From NCBI GenBank assembly GCA_029260075.1, contig JAJDDY010000076.1, forward strand, positions 1 to 64,000: a stretch of 64,000 nucleotides of DNA. Reading direction: 5' to 3'. The notes beneath the pieces were generated by a model, which did not search any database, was not told where the DNA came from, and saw nothing but the letters and a program-made list of their open reading frames with translations. The first letter of the stretch is position 1, and every line of letters begins with the position of its first letter. The position numbers and the translations under genes are program-made. Shown piece after piece: positions 50,067-60,616 of this stretch. Source of the DNA: Phycisphaerae bacterium. Its GTDB lineage: Bacteria > Planctomycetota > Phycisphaerae > UBA1845.

Positions 50067-50250
50067 GTGGTCAGCGGCCGACTACGCAGGCGCTCGGGCT
50101 CAGGATCAGACTGGCACGGGAAATGCGAGACGGATGTGTCGGATGAAACTCGGATCGGGCCGGGCCGGATGCCGGCGTGGCGCTCTGTTCGCCACGCCAG
50201 TGCTCTCGGACTATAAGGACTCGGATAAGATTTACGGAAAGGAAATTGCG

Positions 50251-51354
50251 ATGAAAGGTCTTTATGGTGGTGTGGCATTCGGCGTGGGACTGGCCCTTGC
50301 GACGGTCAGCTCCGGATGCGGGTTTGGCTTCGTGCCGGGCGGGATGCATGGCACGAACGGCGACGGCGGCGAGCCGACGGGCCTCACGGCACAAGTTGCG
50401 GAGAAGGCGCTAACGATCGGTGAGCAGATCGGTGGCGAGGACGGCTTCGGCGGCGTTGCTGCGGACGGATATCTTTCGCACATGGAGGATCACATGGGTT
50501 TCCATGCGATGGACGACCTGGCCGACCCCGACAGGCACATGACGATCGTACTCCTGAACGGATCGGACGAGGATTCGACCTTTGACGTTGTCTACATCGC
50601 CAGCCACATGGGCATCGACGAGCAAGTGCTGCAAGTGGACGTTCCGGCGAGCGACGAGTTGACGGTCGAGCTGCCTTGCGCCGAGATCATCGGGCTTGGA
50701 AGCCTCACGCTCGTTGGTGAGACCGCTGTACACCTGGGTGATGGCACTGAGTTCGAAAACGCGATGTGCGTTCCCGCGTTCCTCGGGTCGGACTACCTCT
50801 GTGATAGCGCATATCACGGGTTCTTGATGGCGGATGTCGACGACCTCGACGGCGATGGCGATACGGCTGAACTCATCGTCACCACGGAGGCCTTCGGATT
50901 CCACACCGGCCCCGCCGGAACCGGTGGACACGGGCACATGGGGGCGGCTGCACCATCTTTGTCCGAGGAAGCGACGAACGGAGAACGTATCTTCAAGACC
51001 GGTTACAACATTGACGGTGAACGAATCGCATTCGATGCTGGGGCACCATGGCTCCACATGCTTGGAGGCGGCTGCGCGGCCTGCCACGGAGCCGACGGCA
51101 CCGGGGGGCGATGGGCCATGATGTCGCTTCAGACCGCCCCAGACATACGCTACTCCCGCCTTACCGAGGATGAACATGCGGCGGATGAAGGCCACCCACC
51201 ATACGACGATGAACTCATCGGCCGGGCTGTTCGCGAAGGTTTGAATCCAGATGGAGAAACACTGAGTTGGCCCATGCCCCGGTGGGATCTTTCGAACCGA
51301 GACATGGCGGACCTGATCGATTACCTAAGAACGCTCGACGGCGAGAGTCCGTAG
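50251..51354 (+). CDS. Haem c lipoprotein with C-terminal cytochrome domain
   Basis: A 367-residue secreted protein. Lipoprotein signal with TVSSGC near residue 21, followed by a Gly/Thr/Asn linker. The central 200 residues form beta-rich repeats ending in HTGPAGTGGHGHMGAA. The C-terminal 90 residues are a class I cytochrome c with the haem motif CAACH (GGGCAACHGADGTGGR) and a distal WPMPRWDLSNRDMADL. It should shuttle electrons at the outer face of the cytoplasmic or outer membrane. ATG follows AAAGGAAATTGCG. Next to the arsM-like unit, suggesting a link to metalloid redox chemistry. Confidence 0.8.
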   Translation: MKGLYGGVAFGVGLALATVSSGCGFGFVPGGMHGTNGDGGEPTGLTAQVAEKALTIGEQIGGEDGFGGVAADGYLSHMEDHMGFHAMDDLADPDRHMTIVLLNGSDEDSTFDVVYIASHMGIDEQVLQVDVPASDELTVELPCAEIIGLGSLTLVGETAVHLGDGTEFENAMCVPAFLGSDYLCDSAYHGFLMADVDDLDGDGDTAELIVTTEAFGFHTGPAGTGGHGHMGAAAPSLSEEATNGERIFKTGYNIDGERIAFDAGAPWLHMLGGGCAACHGADGTGGRWAMMSLQTAPDIRYSRLTEDEHAADEGHPPYDDELIGRAVREGLNPDGETLSWPMPRWDLSNRDMADLIDYLRTLDGESP

Positions 51355-51409: not shown

Positions 51410-51577
51410 ATGCGGCCGCCCGCCCAAGAGGGCAACAAGTTTCACATGGCCGTGTTCGTCTCGTTCGTACTCGGCGTGGCACTCTATGTCGGACTGCTTG
51501 ACGGACTTGTGGCCAACACGCTCGCCCGCGTGTCCTTTTCTCAATCCGTCACAATCCTTGACCTGTTTGGAAGATGA
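51410..51577 (+). CDS. Small single-TM protein coupled to the arsM-like gene
   Basis: A 55-residue protein with one hydrophobic helix (MAVFVSFVLGVALYVGLLDG, residues 13-32) and a short polar C-terminus. Its TGA stop overlaps an ATG (ATGA at 51574) 21 bp before the proposed start of the arsM-like gene, and the overlap suggests translational coupling. No family recognised. Not large enough to exclude chance. Confidence 0.45.
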   Translation: MRPPAQEGNKFHMAVFVSFVLGVALYVGLLDGLVANTLARVSFSQSVTILDLFGR

Positions 51578-51594: not shown

Positions 51595-52326
51595 ATGGAT
51601 GCCGAGACAATCTACGACCAAGTGCGGCAACGTTTCTCTTCCGTCGCCACCGATCCGGCTTCCGAAAGACGCTTCGAGATCGGCTGGACCAGCGCGCTGA
51701 AGCTGGGCTACGATGCGGCGACACTGACCAACTTACCAGTCGGCGCCGTGGAATCCTTCGCCGGCGTCGGCAACCCGCTCGCACTGGATCCGCTCGCGAA
51801 CGGCATGACGGTTCTCGACCTGGGGTGCGGGGCGGGGATGGACACGATCATCAGCGCGCGGATGGTCGGACCGAGCGGCAGGGTGATCGGCATTGATATG
51901 ACCGACGAGATGGTCAACCAAGCTCAGCAGGCTTGCGCCGAAAGCGGACTTGCCAATGTCGAGATCAAGACTGGCATGGCTCACGCGCTCGATGTGGATG
52001 ACGAATCCGTCGATGTCGTCGTCTCCAACGGCGTCATCAATCTCTGCCCTAACAAAGAGAAGGTACTCGCCGAGCTACATCGCGTACTCAAGCCCGGCGG
52101 GCGGTTGCAGGTGGCCGACATGTCGCTCGTAGATGGCGTGAACCCCGAGTTGCTGGAGCGGGTCGGCGAATGGTCCGACTGAGTGTGCGGCGCGATTCCA
52201 GGAAGGTCTTTCCTGGCCAAGTTGAGAGACGCTGGATTCATCGACGCCCGAATCGTGGGGACAACCGGCTACCACACATCCCAGTTCACGGAAGGCATGT
52301 TATTCTTCGCGCGGAAGAGTCTATGA
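51595..52326 (+). CDS. ArsM-like SAM methyltransferase, probable selenoprotein (UGA = Sec196)
   Basis: A class I SAM methyltransferase of the arsenite methyltransferase family: GAVESFAGVGNPLAL, motif I VLDLGCGAGMDTII, VIGIDMTDEMVNQA, VSNGVINLCPNKEKVLAELH and VLKPGGRLQVADM. After the segment RVGEWSD an in-frame TGA (52180-52182) occurs at the position of the conserved Cys in W-x-x-C-V-A-G-A; the frame continues VCGAIPGRSFLAKLRDAGF and FTEGMLFFARKSL and stops at 52324-52326. A SECIS-like hairpin follows the TGA. The other arsenite-binding Cys of ArsM (NCVINL) is Gly here (NGVINL). ATG at 51595 has GGAGG upstream; with Sec the protein has 243 residues. Confidence 0.85.
52180..52182 (+). other. 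In-frame UGA, candidate selenocysteine codon
   Basis: Follows GAATGGTCCGAC (EWSD) and precedes GTGTGCGGCGCG (VCGA). Coincides with the Cys of the conserved C-V-A-G-A block of ArsM-like proteins. Reading it as stop would remove the last 47 codons, which otherwise keep family sequence. Confidence 0.82.
52198..52216 (+). promoter_or_regulatory. Bacterial SECIS-like hairpin
   Basis: CCAGGAA (52198-52204) and TTCCTGG (52210-52216) pair perfectly around a GGTCT loop. The loop begins 23 nt after the UGA, within the 16-37 nt window of bacterial SECIS models, and has G in its first two positions. The GGUC(U) loop matches that of known bacterial SECIS elements as I remember them (for example E. coli fdhF). 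Confidence 0.82.
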
Positions 52327-52425
52327 CGCTGTTGGCGTGCGACTGTAGGCGAGGCGGTCAGCGACGGAGGCTAATAGAGACGGATGCTTCAGGCAATCTG
52401 GGATACGCGAGGCCACCCGAACAGT

Positions 52426-53583
52426 TTACGGTACGGTAGCGGCCACCTCTTCCGATGGCTTGCGCTCGCTGCCTTTTCGCGTTAGTGCCCCAACGCCGTT
52501 GATGACGGCGCAGGTCGGGCATGAGCAGACGCCGGAACGGAAGTTGTTCACAATGGCCTCGGTGGGGCAATTCTCGATACACGCCCCGCAAGCCTGGCAA
52601 GCGTCGAGGTTCACGACTGCGTACTTCTTCGCCGCGCTATCATACGCGAACAAATCGGCCGGGCAAACGATATCGCACAGATGACAGCCGATGCACTTCT
52701 CGGGGAGGATTTCAACGTGCGTATTCTTCACGCCGAGAATGAGTTCTGTTGCGTCTTGTCGCCAGAGCGGCGACCAGCTCGGCATATCATAACCGACGAA
52801 CGCGGAGATAACCATAATCCACCCCGTCCACCCAATCAGATGCCATGGATCGGGCGGGCCAGTCACTTCGGTAAACACCACGAAGACGGCAGCGCCCAGA
52901 ATGCCGAGCGACAGACCCTTTTGCACGCCGGGTTTCCCCGGCAACCAGAACGCCAGGACGCTGCAAAGCACGGAAAAGACGAACAGCAGGGCCAGCGTTC
53001 CCCACAACAGACCGGGGAGCCACACCGAAGCGAGCAGAAGAGGCAATATGAGGAGAAGAGCCACGTTGAAACCGAGATTGGTCCCCATCACGAACCGGTC
53101 TTTGAGATTGAACTTCAAATGCCTGTGTTCGCGCTCGGTTCTCGACTTTCCGTTGCGCAGATACGCGGATAGGTCTTTGACATGCGCCGGTCCGAAGCGC
53201 GGCTTCCATTCGGTACGCTCCTTCAGTGACCAGATGTTCACACCACTAGCCGAAAGCTGCGGGAGAATCAGCCGTCGGTGGTCTACGAGGTTTTCGATGC
53301 CGCTTGTTTTGAGAATCGAGACGACCGTATCCGCCGTGAAATCGCCCGCACCGCCAGCACACCATACGTTGACGCCTTTCGTCGGAGCGACGAGGAGCCA
53401 TGCATCGATACCGTCGCGTTCAAGCGTCTCCATCACTGTTCGGACAGTAAGCTCGAAGTTCGCCGTCACGAGCACCGGTGATGAGCGGCCAGGATTTCCA
53501 ACGCGGCGAAGGCCGGGCTTAGTCGGGAATGGAAAGAGCCGGCCGAAGAGGAACCAGATATCTTTGAGCAGGTTCCACATCAT
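52426..53583 (-). CDS. HgcAB-like corrinoid-binding/ferredoxin fusion protein
   Basis: A 385-residue protein joining HgcA-like and HgcB-like parts. Residues 72-81 are NVWCAGGAGD, close to the HgcA cap-helix motif N(V/I)WCA(A/G)GK but with Ala in place of Lys; Cys75 would be the lower cobalt ligand. The corrinoid domain includes VDHRRLILPQLSASGV. About four TM helices follow (residues 160-260). The C-terminal 90 residues hold two 4Fe-4S motifs (CIGCHLCDIVCP; CQACGACIENCP) and end with VCSCPTC. Methyl transfer to a metal(loid) is plausible; mercury methylation is not proven. Last gene of a five-gene operon. Confidence 0.82.
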   Translation of the reverse strand: MMWNLLKDIWFLFGRLFPFPTKPGLRRVGNPGRSSPVLVTANFELTVRTVMETLERDGIDAWLLVAPTKGVNVWCAGGAGDFTADTVVSILKTSGIENLVDHRRLILPQLSASGVNIWSLKERTEWKPRFGPAHVKDLSAYLRNGKSRTEREHRHLKFNLKDRFVMGTNLGFNVALLLILPLLLASVWLPGLLWGTLALLFVFSVLCSVLAFWLPGKPGVQKGLSLGILGAAVFVVFTEVTGPPDPWHLIGWTGWIMVISAFVGYDMPSWSPLWRQDATELILGVKNTHVEILPEKCIGCHLCDIVCPADLFAYDSAAKKYAVVNLDACQACGACIENCPTEAIVNNFRSGVCSCPTCAVINGVGALTRKGSERKPSEEVAATVP

Positions 53584-54218
53584 GCCCTCTCCGCAACGAC
53601 GAGAGCCAACGTGCCGAGGAGATATCGCTCGGCGGACGCGACCCTGAAGCCGGCCGCCGCGAGCCGACTATCAAGCAACCGTAGCGCGTGTGTCGTGTTC
53701 TGCGTGAGCAGGAGCGTGACAGCCGCAAGGGGCAACCGGACGCAGTAGAAGGGGATTCGTTGCCACCAGGCGTCCGGCCGTACTTCATCCGCTACGATCA
53801 ACTTCCCATTGGGTTTGAGCAAACCACGCGTGGCCCGCAGAACATACCGCTGTTCGTCCTCCGACAGTTCGCTGAGGGACAGGGTGGCAACGATGCGGTC
53901 GAACCGGTCCGATCCCAGCATGCCGATTTCGGTCGCGGTCATGTGAAGGAACTCCGCATCGGGTGCCGAAGTTCGAGCGACGCTCAGCATCGGCTCGGAA
54001 ACGTCGATGCCCACGACTTGGGCGCCTCGATTGGTCATCAAAGCAGCAAGCGAGCCTGATCCGCAGCCGATTTCCAGCACGGCATTGCCCGGTTGAATCC
54101 AGACTGAGGCTATCTCACGCTTGATGCGATCGACACGCCCGAGCGTCAGGATTCGCATTCCCCGATCATACTTGGCCGGGGTTTGCTCCAGAATCTTCAT
54201 GTAGACTAGCGTTGACAT
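53580..54218 (-). CDS. SAM methyltransferase next to HgcAB-like protein (CpaM-like)
   Basis: A 212-residue class I SAM methyltransferase: motif I NAVLEIGCGSGSLAAL, post-I VVGIDVSEPML and a downstream VADEVRPDAWWQRIPF. I recall an NCBI family 'corrinoid protein-associated methyltransferase CpaM' defined by neighbourhood to HgcAB-like fusions; this gene overlaps such a gene by 4 bp, so CpaM is a good name. It may feed methyl groups to the corrinoid protein. Start overlaps the upstream membrane-protein gene by 53 bp; an ATG at 54200 is possible. Confidence 0.8.
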   Translation of the reverse strand: MSTLVYMKILEQTPAKYDRGMRILTLGRVDRIKREIASVWIQPGNAVLEIGCGSGSLAALMTNRGAQVVGIDVSEPMLSVARTSAPDAEFLHMTATEIGMLGSDRFDRIVATLSLSELSEDEQRYVLRATRGLLKPNGKLIVADEVRPDAWWQRIPFYCVRLPLAAVTLLLTQNTTHALRLLDSRLAAAGFRVASAERYLLGTLALVVAERA

Positions 54219-55704: not shown

Positions 55705-56031
55705 ATGAAACCAAAGCCACGACAACTGTACGAAGCCCGTGCCAAGGTCGCCAAAGCTCTGGCCCATCCGAGCCGGTTGCTCATACTGGACGCCCTGGCT
55801 GAGAAGGAAATGTGCGTGTGCGATTTGACCGACCTTGTCGGGGCGGATCAGTCCACCGTGTCCAAGCACTTGGCTGTCTTGAAGAACGCAGGCATTGTGG
55901 CCGATCGCAAGGAGGGCGTCATGATCTTCTACAGCTTGAAGGTCGCATGCCTTCGCGGATTCTGGAGCTGTGTTGAGGGTGTATTAAAGCAGAACCTGAA
56001 GGAACAGCAGGCGGTGATGAGGTCCTCTTGA
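55705..56031 (+). CDS. ArsR-family As(III)-type repressor
   Basis: A 108-residue ArsR protein: VAKALAHPSRLLILDALAEK, EMCVCDLTDLVGADQSTVSK with the CVC arsenite motif in alpha3, then HLAVLKNAGIVADRKEGVMI. It is very close to the start of transcription (12 bp after the -10). It should control the downstream arsP to arsG genes. Confidence 0.92.
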   Translation: MKPKPRQLYEARAKVAKALAHPSRLLILDALAEKEMCVCDLTDLVGADQSTVSKHLAVLKNAGIVADRKEGVMIFYSLKVACLRGFWSCVEGVLKQNLKEQQAVMRSS

Positions 56032-56146
56032 GCGCGGTATCCAATGCATTTCGTTTTTGTTTTGTCACATCCATGGCAACATGGCCATGGAGGCATGCAT
56101 ATTGCTGGGTGTATTGAGTCCGCTGGTGGACTAGGGAGTTAGATCG

Positions 56147-57457
56147 ATGGCTGCAAAGCAGTGGAAGATATTCGCCGCGTTCGCGGTCATTTTCGTCGTA
56201 TCCTATGGCCTCCCGCTATCGAACCCGAAAGTAACGGCGGCAATCCTCGAAGCTTTCAAGATGGTTCAGTGGTACGCCCGGAACCATACGCTTGCGTGTG
56301 TGGTGCCTGCGCTCTTCATCGCGGGAGGGATCATCACGTTTCTGTCTAAGGAAGCCGTGTTGCGGCACCTCGGACCGAAGGCCAACAAGGTCGAGGCTTA
56401 CTCCGTGGCTTCCGTTTCGGGCACTGTGCTGGCGGTTTGTTCGTGCAGCGTGCTGCCGATGTTCGCCGGAATCTACAGAGTGGGCGCGGGGCTTGGACCG
56501 GCCTCGGCATTCCTTTACTCCGGCCCGGCCTTAAACATCCTCGCAATTTTCCTGACGGCTCGCGTGCTCGGTTTTGAAATTGGGCTCTGGCGCGCGGTGG
56601 GTGCGATTGTCTTCGGCATCGTCATCGGCTTGATCATGGCCGTCATCTTCCGGAAGGACGAGCAGGTACGCAGCGAAGCCATGGCCGACTTGCCCGACTC
56701 GCCCCCTGCTCGGCGACCCCTCTGGCAGACCGTTCTCTACTTTGCCTGCATGATGGCTTTTCTGGTTTTCAGCGACTGGTACAACCCCGGCAACGTGATT
56801 GTGCATCGAACGGACGGTGTCGAGATTCCCGCCGTACTCATGCAGGAAACAAAGGACGAAGTCGTCGTACAGGTGGACCGGCCTGTCGCGGGCATGAAGG
56901 TAGGCGACAAGATCACGCTCGCCAAAACAGAGATCGAACACATTGAAGAAGCGCAGGGCTTGGTCATCACGATCTTCCACATGAAGTGGTACCTAGCCGG
57001 GGTGATGGGCTTAGCCGTGCTCTTGATGGTCTGGCGGTGGTTCGAGCCCCACGAGGTGAAGGAGTGGATGCACAACACGTGGGACTTCGCCAAGCTCCTG
57101 GTGCCGCTCTTGTTTGGCGGTGTGTTCGTCGTGGGGTTCCTTGGCGCTCTTCTGCCGGATAAGCAGGTGGCCGCACTTGTCGGCGACAACAGTTTCCAGT
57201 CAAACGTGATCGCCTCGGTCGTTGGATGCCTGTTCTACTTCGCCACCTTGACGGAGATTCCGATTCTGCAGGCACTCTTCGAGCACGGAATGCATAAGGG
57301 CCCGGCCCTGGCGTTGCTGCTGGCTGGCCCGGCATTGTCGCTGCCGAGCCTGCTGGTGATTCGGTCAGTCATTGGACTTAAGAAGACCGCGGTGTTCACC
57401 GTGCTGGTCGTGGTAATGGCAACGATCGTCGGAATGATCTACGGCTCAATCGCATAA
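56147..57457 (+). CDS. arsP: ArsP-like permease (organoarsenical exporter family)
   Basis: A 436-residue membrane protein with eight to ten helices. The family motif CSCSVLPMFAGIYRVGAGLG is complete (residues about 101-120) and GPALNILAIFLTAR follows; a second half with ALLLAGPALSLPSLLVIRSV repeats the pattern. It belongs to the permease family PF03773, whose ArsP members export trivalent methylarsenicals. A 90-residue soluble loop between halves (about 190-290) is unusual in small family members. ATG follows GGGAGTTAGATCG. Confidence 0.88.
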   Translation: MAAKQWKIFAAFAVIFVVSYGLPLSNPKVTAAILEAFKMVQWYARNHTLACVVPALFIAGGIITFLSKEAVLRHLGPKANKVEAYSVASVSGTVLAVCSCSVLPMFAGIYRVGAGLGPASAFLYSGPALNILAIFLTARVLGFEIGLWRAVGAIVFGIVIGLIMAVIFRKDEQVRSEAMADLPDSPPARRPLWQTVLYFACMMAFLVFSDWYNPGNVIVHRTDGVEIPAVLMQETKDEVVVQVDRPVAGMKVGDKITLAKTEIEHIEEAQGLVITIFHMKWYLAGVMGLAVLLMVWRWFEPHEVKEWMHNTWDFAKLLVPLLFGGVFVVGFLGALLPDKQVAALVGDNSFQSNVIASVVGCLFYFATLTEIPILQALFEHGMHKGPALALLLAGPALSLPSLLVIRSVIGLKKTAVFTVLVVVMATIVGMIYGSIA

Positions 57458-57468
57458 GGAGATTCGAG

Positions 57469-57852
57469 ATGGCGAACGGTTGTTGTAGTAACGACACGAA
57501 TGAAACGCTCATCTTCACGTGTGCAGGTGCGGCGCACTCCGGGCAGGTGTCCAATCGGGCCGGGATTGGGTTGGCGCAGGAGGGCGTGGGGAACCTGTTC
57601 TGCGTCGCGGCCATGGGGGCCGAGATTCCAGACAAGATGGATCGAGCCCGCAATGCTGGGAAACGTGTGGTGATCGACGGCTGCGAGGATCACTGCGCAC
57701 GGAAGATCATGGAGAAGGCGAGCCTACCAGTCGAGGTCCACGTAGACGTGACGAACCTCGGCATCGAGAAAAAGCCTGAGAAACCACAACTCATCAACGA
57801 CGCAAAGCGCGTGATGGAAGAAATACGGACGTTATTGTCTGCGGCCAGCTGA
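57469..57852 (+). CDS. DGC-domain putative zinc-binding protein
   Basis: A 127-residue protein with an N-terminal GCCSND, TCAGAAHSGQVSNRAGIGLA, CVAAMGAEIP and the D-G-C motif (VIDGCEDHCARKIM) that defines the DGC family (PF08859). It is commonly found with ArsP-type permeases in operons. Three or four Cys clusters could bind zinc or arsenite. Ribosome site AAGGAG follows the ArsP gene by 11 bp. Confidence 0.85.
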   Translation: MANGCCSNDTNETLIFTCAGAAHSGQVSNRAGIGLAQEGVGNLFCVAAMGAEIPDKMDRARNAGKRVVIDGCEDHCARKIMEKASLPVEVHVDVTNLGIEKKPEKPQLINDAKRVMEEIRTLLSAAS

Positions 57853-57974
57853 TCGTGAACGCGATTAGCGCGAGCCCCTGATATGGAAAACAAACTGCGG
57901 CCTCGAGGACTGAGCCCATACGTGCAGGGTAAGCCTCGTGATCAGCCGGCAGGCGGCAAAGACGAGGAGATATC

Positions 57975-58232
57975 ATGAAAATCAAAGTGTTAGGACCGGG
58001 GTGCCCAAAGTGCTCTGCGCTGGCGGCTAGCGTTCAAGTCGCGGCCGACGGACTTGGGCTCCAATACGAGTTAGAGAAGATTTCGGACATCATCGAGATT
58101 ACCAATCACGGGGTGATGGCAACGCCGGCGCTGGTGATTGACGGAAAAGTGACCGTCAGCGGCAAGGTGCCGAGCGAGGCGGAAATCACCACCATGCTGA
58201 CGTCGGCACTTGCGAGCGGGGAGTCCGCCTGA
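57975..58232 (+). CDS. Small thioredoxin-fold redox protein
   Basis: An 85-residue thioredoxin-fold protein with the active-site CPKC (VLGPGCPKCSALAASVQVAA) and GVMATPALVIDGKVTVSGKV, i.e. the cis-Pro loop. It matches TIGR00412 'redox-active disulfide protein 2'. Often a partner of ArsP and DGC proteins. Ribosome site GGAG at good spacing. It probably reduces disulfides in the metalloid pathway. Confidence 0.9.
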   Translation: MKIKVLGPGCPKCSALAASVQVAADGLGLQYELEKISDIIEITNHGVMATPALVIDGKVTVSGKVPSEAEITTMLTSALASGESA

Positions 58233-58270
58233 GTCACTCGCGAGCCGGTATTTTGAGAACGAGAGATGCC

Positions 58271-58936
58271 ATGAAGAGTGTAACAACGATAGTCTTGCTC
58301 GTCTTTGTCGCCGTAACCGTTGTCTATCTTGTGGTCGGCGGACCCCGTAGTGCTTCGACCGCCCCGAGCAAAACGGCGACGTCCGATGTACCGCCGACGA
58401 TGGCCGGATCGGAGACCTCCAGCGAGGACGTTCTTACTCACGAGGGTCAAGCCAACGGCGGCCCCTCCGCCGACGATTCCGCTGCGGGCGATTCTGCCGC
58501 CGTGACTCCGGTCTCCGTCACTAAGTTGCCCGAGGCTAAGCAGCTTGAAACGCGCCATGCCAAAGCGTTGGTGGCGCAGGAGGAGGCGCCGCCCGGCCGC
58601 AAAGTCATCGCGTACTATTTCCATCGCACGCAACGGTGTCGAACGTGCTTGACCATGGAAGCCTACGCTGAGCAGGCACTGAAGGACGGGCTTTCCGAGG
58701 AGCTGGAGTCGGGAGTTTTGGAGTGGCGTGCCATTAACGTGGAGGAGTCGGAGCACGAACACTTCGTCAAGGAATACGAACTGTACTCCAGCGAACTCGT
58801 GATGGTGGAAACCGAGGGCGGACAGGTGACGCGATCGAAGAAGCTCAAGCAGATCTGGGATCTCGTGGGCGATGAAGGGACATTCAAAACATTCGTCCGT
58901 GATGAGGCGCAGGCGTACTTGGAGGCCATCCCGTAA
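58271..58936 (+). CDS. arsF: ArsF-like membrane-anchored thioredoxin-family protein
   Basis: A 221-residue protein with an N-terminal anchor (VTTIVLLVFVAVTVVYLVVG), a Ser/Thr/Ala-rich linker and a thioredoxin-like domain with YFHRTQRCRTCLTMEAYAEQ, CRTC being the likely redox pair. I recall NCBI's 'nitrophenyl compound nitroreductase subunit ArsF' family for such proteins preceding ArsG. Its stop overlaps the ATG of the next gene (TAATGG at 58934). Exported side of the membrane. Confidence 0.8.
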   Translation: MKSVTTIVLLVFVAVTVVYLVVGGPRSASTAPSKTATSDVPPTMAGSETSSEDVLTHEGQANGGPSADDSAAGDSAAVTPVSVTKLPEAKQLETRHAKALVAQEEAPPGRKVIAYYFHRTQRCRTCLTMEAYAEQALKDGLSEELESGVLEWRAINVEESEHEHFVKEYELYSSELVMVETEGGQVTRSKKLKQIWDLVGDEGTFKTFVRDEAQAYLEAIP

Positions 58937-59625
58937 TGGACGACACGGTACTTGCGATCGGTTCGGCCATATGGCTTGGCATCCTGACTGCGATCAGCCC
59001 GTGTCCGCTCGCAACCAACATCGCAGCCGTGTCGTTTATCGCACGGCGCGTGGACAATCCAAGGGCAGCCGTCCTTACCGGTGTGCTCTATGCAATCGGT
59101 AGAAGCCTAGTTTATGTTACGCTCGGAGCGCTGCTCGTCGCGAGCGTGATGGCTGCGCCTTCCGTGTCACACTGGCTTCAGAAATACATGAACAAGATTC
59201 TGGGGCCCGTGCTGATCCTGGTCGGCATGATCCTACTCGACTTGATTAGCGTCGGGTCGTTTGGCGGCGGCCTCGGCGAGCGCGTTGGCAAGCGCGTAGA
59301 GGGCTGGGGCATTTGGTCAGGGTTGGCGCTCGGCGTTGTGTTCGCACTCTCGTTCTGCCCGTCATCCGCTGCGCTGTTTTTCGGTAGCCTTGTGCCACTA
59401 TCGATTAAGTTCGAATCGTCTCTGTTGCTCCCCTCGATATACGGGGCCAGCACCGCCCTTCCTGTCATCGTTTTCGCAGTCCTGATTGCCGTGGGAGCCA
59501 AGGCGGTCGGCAGGGCGTTTAACAGGGTGGCCTCGTTTGAGCGATGGGCGCGTCTAGTCACGGGGATCATCTTCATTGCGATAGGTGTTTACTTCGCACT
59601 GAGGTTCGTCTTTGGAATCGTGTAG
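58936..59625 (+). CDS. arsG: ArsG-like aromatic arsenical efflux permease
   Basis: A 229-residue membrane protein of the DsbD/CcdA-like permease type: the N-terminal helix pair contains AISPCPLATNIAAVSFIARR and the second half ALSFCPSSAALFFGSLVPLS, each with the conserved Cys-Pro. It matches 'aromatic aminobenezylarsenical efflux permease ArsG'. Translationally coupled to the ArsF-like gene. It would carry electrons or arsenicals across the membrane together with ArsF. Confidence 0.85.
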   Translation: MDDTVLAIGSAIWLGILTAISPCPLATNIAAVSFIARRVDNPRAAVLTGVLYAIGRSLVYVTLGALLVASVMAAPSVSHWLQKYMNKILGPVLILVGMILLDLISVGSFGGGLGERVGKRVEGWGIWSGLALGVVFALSFCPSSAALFFGSLVPLSIKFESSLLLPSIYGASTALPVIVFAVLIAVGAKAVGRAFNRVASFERWARLVTGIIFIAIGVYFALRFVFGIV

Positions 59626-59764
59626 CAGAAAGGAGGTATTGATCGAAAAGACCTAGTTGTTTTAGATGGCGCGGCTGAGGGAGGTCGACGGAAACACCGC
59701 CGTGTTCGGGGTCGCGTCGCAACAAGATCGTTCTTTCACAGCATCTGGAACAGGAGTACATTTG

Positions 59765-60616
59765 ATGAGCGAATCAGATCGACGAGTTTTCTTGAAGTGC
59801 GCCGCTGGCGCGGGGCTCGGCGCGGTGATGATGTCGAAAGGCTGCGGTGTCATACCGGGAACCGACATCCCCGGTTCGGGAACGAACGGCGGCGGAACCG
59901 GCACGATTGCTTGGCCGGCGACGTACAGCAAGCTGGATGTCGAGACCGTGCGCAAGCGCGGACATGCCGGGTACTACGCGGGTGACTGCTGTTACGGTTC
60001 CTTTCATGCCATCGTCGAGTCACTCTCCGAGGCCGTTGGTGAGCCGTTCACCAGTTTCCCAAGCGACATGATGCGTTACGGCAAGGGCGGCATGTACGGG
60101 TACGGAACGCTTTGCGGAGCGCTCAACGGCGCAGCGGCAGCGATCCAGATGGTGACGGATGAGGAGACCGCCGCCATGGTCATCACCGAGCTTCTCAACT
60201 GGTATGCAACCGCGGCGCTTCCTACGGACCAGTCCAATCAGTACGCCGTGAACCACGAGTTTCTGGTAGATGAGCTGAAAGCCGAAGGGGCGTTACATCA
60301 GAACGTGGCCGGCAATGTTCTGTGCCATATTTCTGTCAGCAAATGGTCGCAGGAAGCAGGATTTGCCAGCAAGTCGCCCGAGCGCAAGGAACGCTGTGCC
60401 CGATTAGCAGGCGACGTGGCAGCCAAGGCGGTTGAGTTGCTCAATGCCGTAAATGACGAGACTTTTGCCCCGGCATTGACCAGTCTCGGAGAACAGGCCG
60501 GATGCATGGAGTGCCACAAGCCGGGCCTCGACTTTGACGGCGGCAACTTCACGCAGGGCAAGATGGATTGCATGGCGTGCCACGTGGAGCCGGTGATTCC
60601 ATCGCACGGCGGGTAA
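59765..60616 (+). CDS. C_GCAxxG_C_C family protein with Tat lipoprotein signal and haem motifs
   Basis: A 283-residue secreted protein. Twin-arginine motif DRRVFLKCAAGAGLGAV is followed by a lipobox MMSKGC. The body carries the C_GCAxxG_C_C pattern (GDCCYGSFHAIVES ... YGYGTLCGALNGAAAAI), and the C-terminus has two haem motifs CMECH and CMACH, as in split-Soret cytochromes. It should bind c-type haem outside the cytoplasmic membrane and may accept electrons from the ArsF/ArsG pair. AGGAG precedes the ATG. Last gene of the arsR-arsP operon. Confidence 0.82.
   Translation: MSESDRRVFLKCAAGAGLGAVMMSKGCGVIPGTDIPGSGTNGGGTGTIAWPATYSKLDVETVRKRGHAGYYAGDCCYGSFHAIVESLSEAVGEPFTSFPSDMMRYGKGGMYGYGTLCGALNGAAAAIQMVTDEETAAMVITELLNWYATAALPTDQSNQYAVNHEFLVDELKAEGALHQNVAGNVLCHISVSKWSQEAGFASKSPERKERCARLAGDVAAKAVELLNAVNDETFAPALTSLGEQAGCMECHKPGLDFDGGNFTQGKMDCMACHVEPVIPSHGG

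Follow-up and report, generated by a model that had tools for sequence, protein, structure and literature searches.

The analysed window, a 64,000-nt stretch of a contig of a Phycisphaerae bacterium, carries an ArsM-like SAM methyltransferase gene, whose features are collected in Table 1 together with its main neighbours. The only internal stop in the frame 51595-52326 is the TGA at 52180-52182, and the frame closes with a second TGA at 52324-52326. As stated in the original prediction, 47 codons separate the internal TGA from this normal stop. Around the internal TGA the residues read W-S-D-U-V-C-G-A. A second in-frame ATG lies further upstream, at 51574, but the ATG at 51595 is favoured as start because a GGAGG motif is located about 10 nt upstream of it.

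Table 1. Features of the ArsM-like gene and its surroundings (positions in the window)
Feature	Position	Strand	Basis or remark
ArsM-like SAM methyltransferase gene, one predicted Sec, 243 residues	51595..52326	+	Frame, NCBIfam models, AlphaFold model
Codon GTC, Val58 in GVGNP	51766..51768	+	Aligned with As ligand CmArsM Cys72; coordinate by residue count from 51595
Codon GGC, Gly146 in NGVINL	52030..52032	+	Aligned with As ligand CmArsM Cys174; coordinate by residue count from 51595
UGA codon, predicted Sec196	52180..52182	+	Aligned with CmArsM Cys224 / human AS3MT Cys206
47 coding codons 3' of the UGA	52183..52323	+	Conservation compared with relatives
Hairpin (candidate bacterial SECIS; GGUCU loop on a 7-bp stem)	52198..52216	+	Geometry and comparison across genes
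HgcAB-like corrinoid/ferredoxin fusion protein	52426..53583	-	NF043039, 357 bits (cut-off 285); convergent with the Sec gene
CpaM corrinoid protein-associated methyltransferase	53580..54218	-	NF043040, 267 bits (cut-off 180)
Metal(loid) cassette	55705-59625	+	Regulator, permease, DGC, thioredoxin-like, ArsG

RND efflux and P-type ATPase genes are found upstream of the methyltransferase gene. Downstream, the HgcAB-like fusion contains an NVWCAGGAG motif, and two ArsR/SmtB regulators are encoded beyond CpaM. The cassette comprises an ArsR/SmtB regulator, a permease resembling SaoE/SO_0444 (below cut-offs), a DGC protein, an MTH895/ArsE thioredoxin-like protein, a product without assignment (58253-58936) and an ArsG permease scoring above its cut-off with 283.7 bits. 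Together, these neighbours suggest a region that may serve metal(loid) detoxification. A split-Soret cytochrome c-like protein with a C_GCAxxG_C_C domain is encoded at 59666-60616 (+), with 188.6 bits against a cut-off of 400. On the other side, the methyltransferase gene adjoins a gene (50217-51354) for a putative lipoprotein that contains a c-type haem domain; similar lipoproteins near the TGA-containing gene of two relatives (L067, 5765-6514; L068, 7910-8608) may be a matter of chance.

The AlphaFold model of the protein has a pLDDT of 94.4 and displays the ArsM fold with its SAM-binding domain. In a PDB search with this model, the top 13 matches were all ArsM/AS3MT structures. CmArsM (PDB 4fr0, 6cx6), CrArsM (5evj) and human AS3MT (8xt7) share the fold with TM-scores of 0.66-0.78 by query length, although the window protein, at 243 residues, is shorter than the 321-387 residues of their PDB chains. 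The best NCBIfam matches, all aligned over the whole protein, are NF041537 (ArsM/AhpD double selenoprotein; 267.5 bits, cut-off 510), NF047649 (MTase/UXPK-star; 251.1 bits, cut-off 460) and NF041536 (ArsM/DUF2284 selenoprotein; 240.3 bits, cut-off 575). These three families are two-domain fusions, whereas the window protein stands alone and scores below each cut-off; membership of NF041537 takes a fused AhpD domain and at least 510 bits, and this second domain is absent. The match to NF008823 reaches 207.8 bits, against a curated cut-off of 263. The Sec-containing arsenite methyltransferase (PRK11873/NF008823, e.g. WP_011987699.1) belongs to the same fold family, and the U-V-C-G of the window protein fits its UxxG motif.

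The host genome (4.9 Mb, 97% complete) was searched for selA, selB, selC and selD, as the original prediction had proposed, and contains all four. The matches to selA (570 bits), selB (337.7 bits) and selD (370.2 bits) each exceed the curated cut-off, as does that to tRNA-Sec (69.4 bits), for which ARAGORN gives the anticodon TCA. The host selD carries an in-frame TGA of its own (SCAGUAGK); the Sec motif of SelD is given as UxxK in a review (PMC13188914).

Next, relatives were searched in the family, class and phylum of the window. The family and class searches yielded six relatives with a TGA and the phylum search 22 more, including the closest homologues (47-55% identity). Each of these 28 other ArsM-like frames has a single TGA, and in the alignment it always falls in the TGA column of the window. 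Among 70 aligned homologues, this column holds TGA in 29 (window included; hereafter Sec rows) and Cys in 40, with one row truncated; the Sec count is slightly inflated because L096 and L099 are near-copies, and since the Sec rows are related, their counts overstate independence. The TGA had been placed at the Cys of a conserved W-x-x-C-V-A-G-A block, and the homologues indeed have Cys or Sec (TGA) at exactly this position. Amino-acid identity to the five nearest relatives is 49-57% after the TGA and 47-53% before it, so the 47 codons following the TGA are conserved equally to those upstream. The recurrence of the TGA in 28 other genomes, which approximates the proposed check for an assembly error, makes a sequencing error in the present assembly very unlikely. 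A selA match above cut-off was obtained in 26 of the 28 genomes carrying these other Sec-type genes and was not found in the remaining two, drafts of 210 and 510 contigs. A single-protein scan of genome contigs gave only one Cys-type match. Among the matches listed by a plasmid tblastn, identities were 37-45% and most annotations were arsenite or generic methyltransferase.

The 7-bp hairpin of the original prediction proved exact, with the arms CCAGGAA (52198-52204) and TTCCTGG (52210-52216) enclosing the loop GGTCT (52205-52209). The stem follows the TGA after 15 nt, and its loop starts at the 23rd nt after the TGA. As expected of a bacterial SECIS element, it lies downstream of the UGA and has a G within the first two loop bases. 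Considered alone, the hairpin is weak evidence and not exceptional: folding of the 55 nt that hold it was not significant (z = -0.32), and an equally stable hairpin of such geometry occurs in 6% of 60-mers drawn at random from the window. Compared across genes, its role as a SECIS becomes convincing. Downstream of the 29 TGAs, the best hairpin with SECIS geometry has a median energy of -10.4 kcal/mol; downstream of the 40 Cys codons, the median is -3.45 kcal/mol (Mann-Whitney p = 3e-11, for rows that are not phylogenetically independent). Such a hairpin was found in all 29 Sec-type genes, and in 28 of them the loop starts 17-23 nt after the TGA. Near relatives retain the stem of the window, e.g. 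L081 with CCAGGAA-GGTCG-TTCCTGG. The Sec relatives in the window's own family use a different pairing register at a nearly unchanged loop distance, so that the position of the hairpin is kept and not its sequence. Rfam gave no match for the whole window or for 52100-52400, which is unsurprising because bacterial SECIS elements vary in sequence.

Based on the frame, the Sec machinery, the Sec/Cys column, the conserved hairpin and coding sequence, and the fold, the gene almost certainly encodes a selenoprotein in which the UGA at 52180 would be read as Sec. This upholds the central claim of the original prediction, to which the 28 other TGA genomes add weight. Two other explanations of the TGA are highly improbable. 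A genuine stop or pseudogene lesion would leave a protein of 195 residues that keeps most of the SAM-binding domain, and the non-significant single-sequence hairpin would agree with it, but the TGA stands at the identical column of 28 other genomes in otherwise open frames, the downstream codons are conserved like the upstream ones, and the host possesses a complete Sec machinery. Insertion of Trp or Cys instead of Sec, whether through suppression or a variant code, would match the Cys of the homologues; against it stand the dedicated tRNA-Sec(UCA), SelA, SelB and SelD of the host, the use of TGA as the final stop of the same frame, and a host SelD that is itself recoded at the classical Sec site, and we give it hardly any credence. 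As a selenoprotein gene, the locus would work by SelB with Sec-tRNA(UCA) recoding the UGA at 52180, aided by the hairpin, and Sec196 would take the place of the catalytic As ligand Cys224 of ArsM.

Selenoproteins of this type have been described before. In the lists of prokaryotic selenoproteins given in reviews, arsenite methyltransferase (PRK11873/NF008823, UxxG) is included, and the latest review places it under 'experimentally verified' selenoproteins (PMC9312934, PMC13188914). A marine survey of 2008 had already listed a Sec arsenite methyltransferase (PMC2398784). Since ArsM-type selenoproteins with UxxG are thus catalogued in the lists of these reviews and in NCBIfam, the window gene adds a further case of a known type, and the novelty implied by the original prediction does not hold.

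The As ligands of CmArsM are Cys72, Cys174 and Cys224. Inorganic As(III) is methylated only when all three are present, and MMA requires Cys174 and Cys224 (PMC3877260). Compared to CmArsM, CrArsM and AS3MT, the window protein has Sec for one Cys ligand, aligned with CmArsM Cys224 and human AS3MT Cys206, and Gly and Val for the others. The three As(III)-binding cysteines are thus represented by Val, Gly and Sec (CmArsM 72, 174 and 224). The Gly in place of the second arsenite-binding Cys (NGVINL versus NCVINL), already noticed earlier, was confirmed by alignment, and Cys homologues read GCGNP where the window protein reads GVGNP. All 29 Sec rows have Sec at 224, Gly at 174 and Val or Leu at 72 (CmArsM numbering). 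The Cys rows are Cys/Cys/Cys in 36 of 40 cases and Cys/Gly/Ala in the other four. Across 69 homologues, Sec in the 224 column always occurs without the other two As-binding cysteines. An N-terminal CC is absent from the Sec rows and present in most Cys/Cys/Cys rows.

In the tree, which has no outgroup, the Cys/Cys/Cys rows form one side of a branch with support of 99/94, and the four Cys/Gly/Ala rows (L046, L055, L058 and L103) nest among the Sec rows. This placement in a tree without outgroup suggests that the Cys/Gly/Ala proteins may stem from a later Sec-to-Cys change, as possible reversions. The idea that genomes of this type have no Sec machinery had a mixed outcome, with selA above the cut-off in two of the four and no such match in the other two.

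As to the substrate, the protein might act together with the HgcAB-like protein and CpaM encoded next to it, in a corrinoid-dependent pathway that methylates or demethylates metals. Both proteins score above their cut-offs and their genes are convergent neighbours at 52426-54218, yet they are not co-directional with the Sec gene, and organisms with fused HgcAB tested to date do not methylate Hg (PMC5893877). Moreover, in the 21 relative loci inspected, neither the HgcAB-like and CpaM genes nor the permease or ArsG were found beside the Sec-type gene, and the weak CpaM matches at these loci fall within the ArsM-like gene itself. A shared operon was not found by all-against-all clustering of the relatives' flanking ORFs. 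The partnership is therefore unlikely, and since none of the inspected relatives showed this linkage, the neighbourhood says little on the substrate.

Another reading, in line with the filing in the reviews' lists, is that of a selenoprotein acting as an ordinary arsenite methyltransferase, with small thiols such as GSH providing the other As ligands. It agrees with the ArsM fold, with Sec at the catalytic As ligand position, with the family annotation as arsenite methyltransferase and with the arsenic-type genes nearby (ArsR/SmtB regulators, ArsG), and it is a plausible though somewhat doubtful explanation: every one of the 29 Sec members has Gly and Val/Leu in place of two of the three As(III) ligands and also lacks the N-terminal CC, and the C174A mutant of CmArsM has no activity on iAs or MMA (PMC3877260). 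In addition, the host genome encodes a separate Cys/Cys/Cys ArsM (L010), which together with the ligand loss makes unaided classical As(III) methylation unlikely. The original prediction had questioned a classical As(III) substrate on the grounds of one lost ligand, and this doubt is strengthened because the equivalent of Cys72 is also lost in 29 of 29 Sec rows. We lean towards the view that the Sec protein is not a classical arsenite methyltransferase, since no member of the Sec lineage retains either of the other two thiols that bind As(III). In such a non-classical enzyme, the Sec selenolate would most probably be the sole protein ligand or nucleophile, presenting a soft, singly coordinated substrate to SAM for methylation. 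Candidate substrates would be As species that are partly methylated or bound to a thiol, and other soft metal(loid)s, for example Se, Te or Hg. Whether the whole Sec-type lineage is functionally distinct, with one Sec for three thiols and a non-arsenite substrate, so that 'arsenite methyltransferase' would be a lineage-wide misannotation, we regard as evenly balanced.

Judged from the alignments, the new element here appears to be the constant loss of the other two As ligands in the Sec lineage, which was not encountered in the consulted passages of the reviews cited above. For the gene itself, the Sec call would correct an annotation that stops at the TGA at 52180. The association of Sec with the loss of two ligands permits a simple enzymology test and calls into question whether this recurring selenoprotein lineage is rightly annotated for arsenite. 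If the proposed distinction is true, the Sec-type lineage would act on Se, Te or Hg, or on an As species bound through a single thiol.
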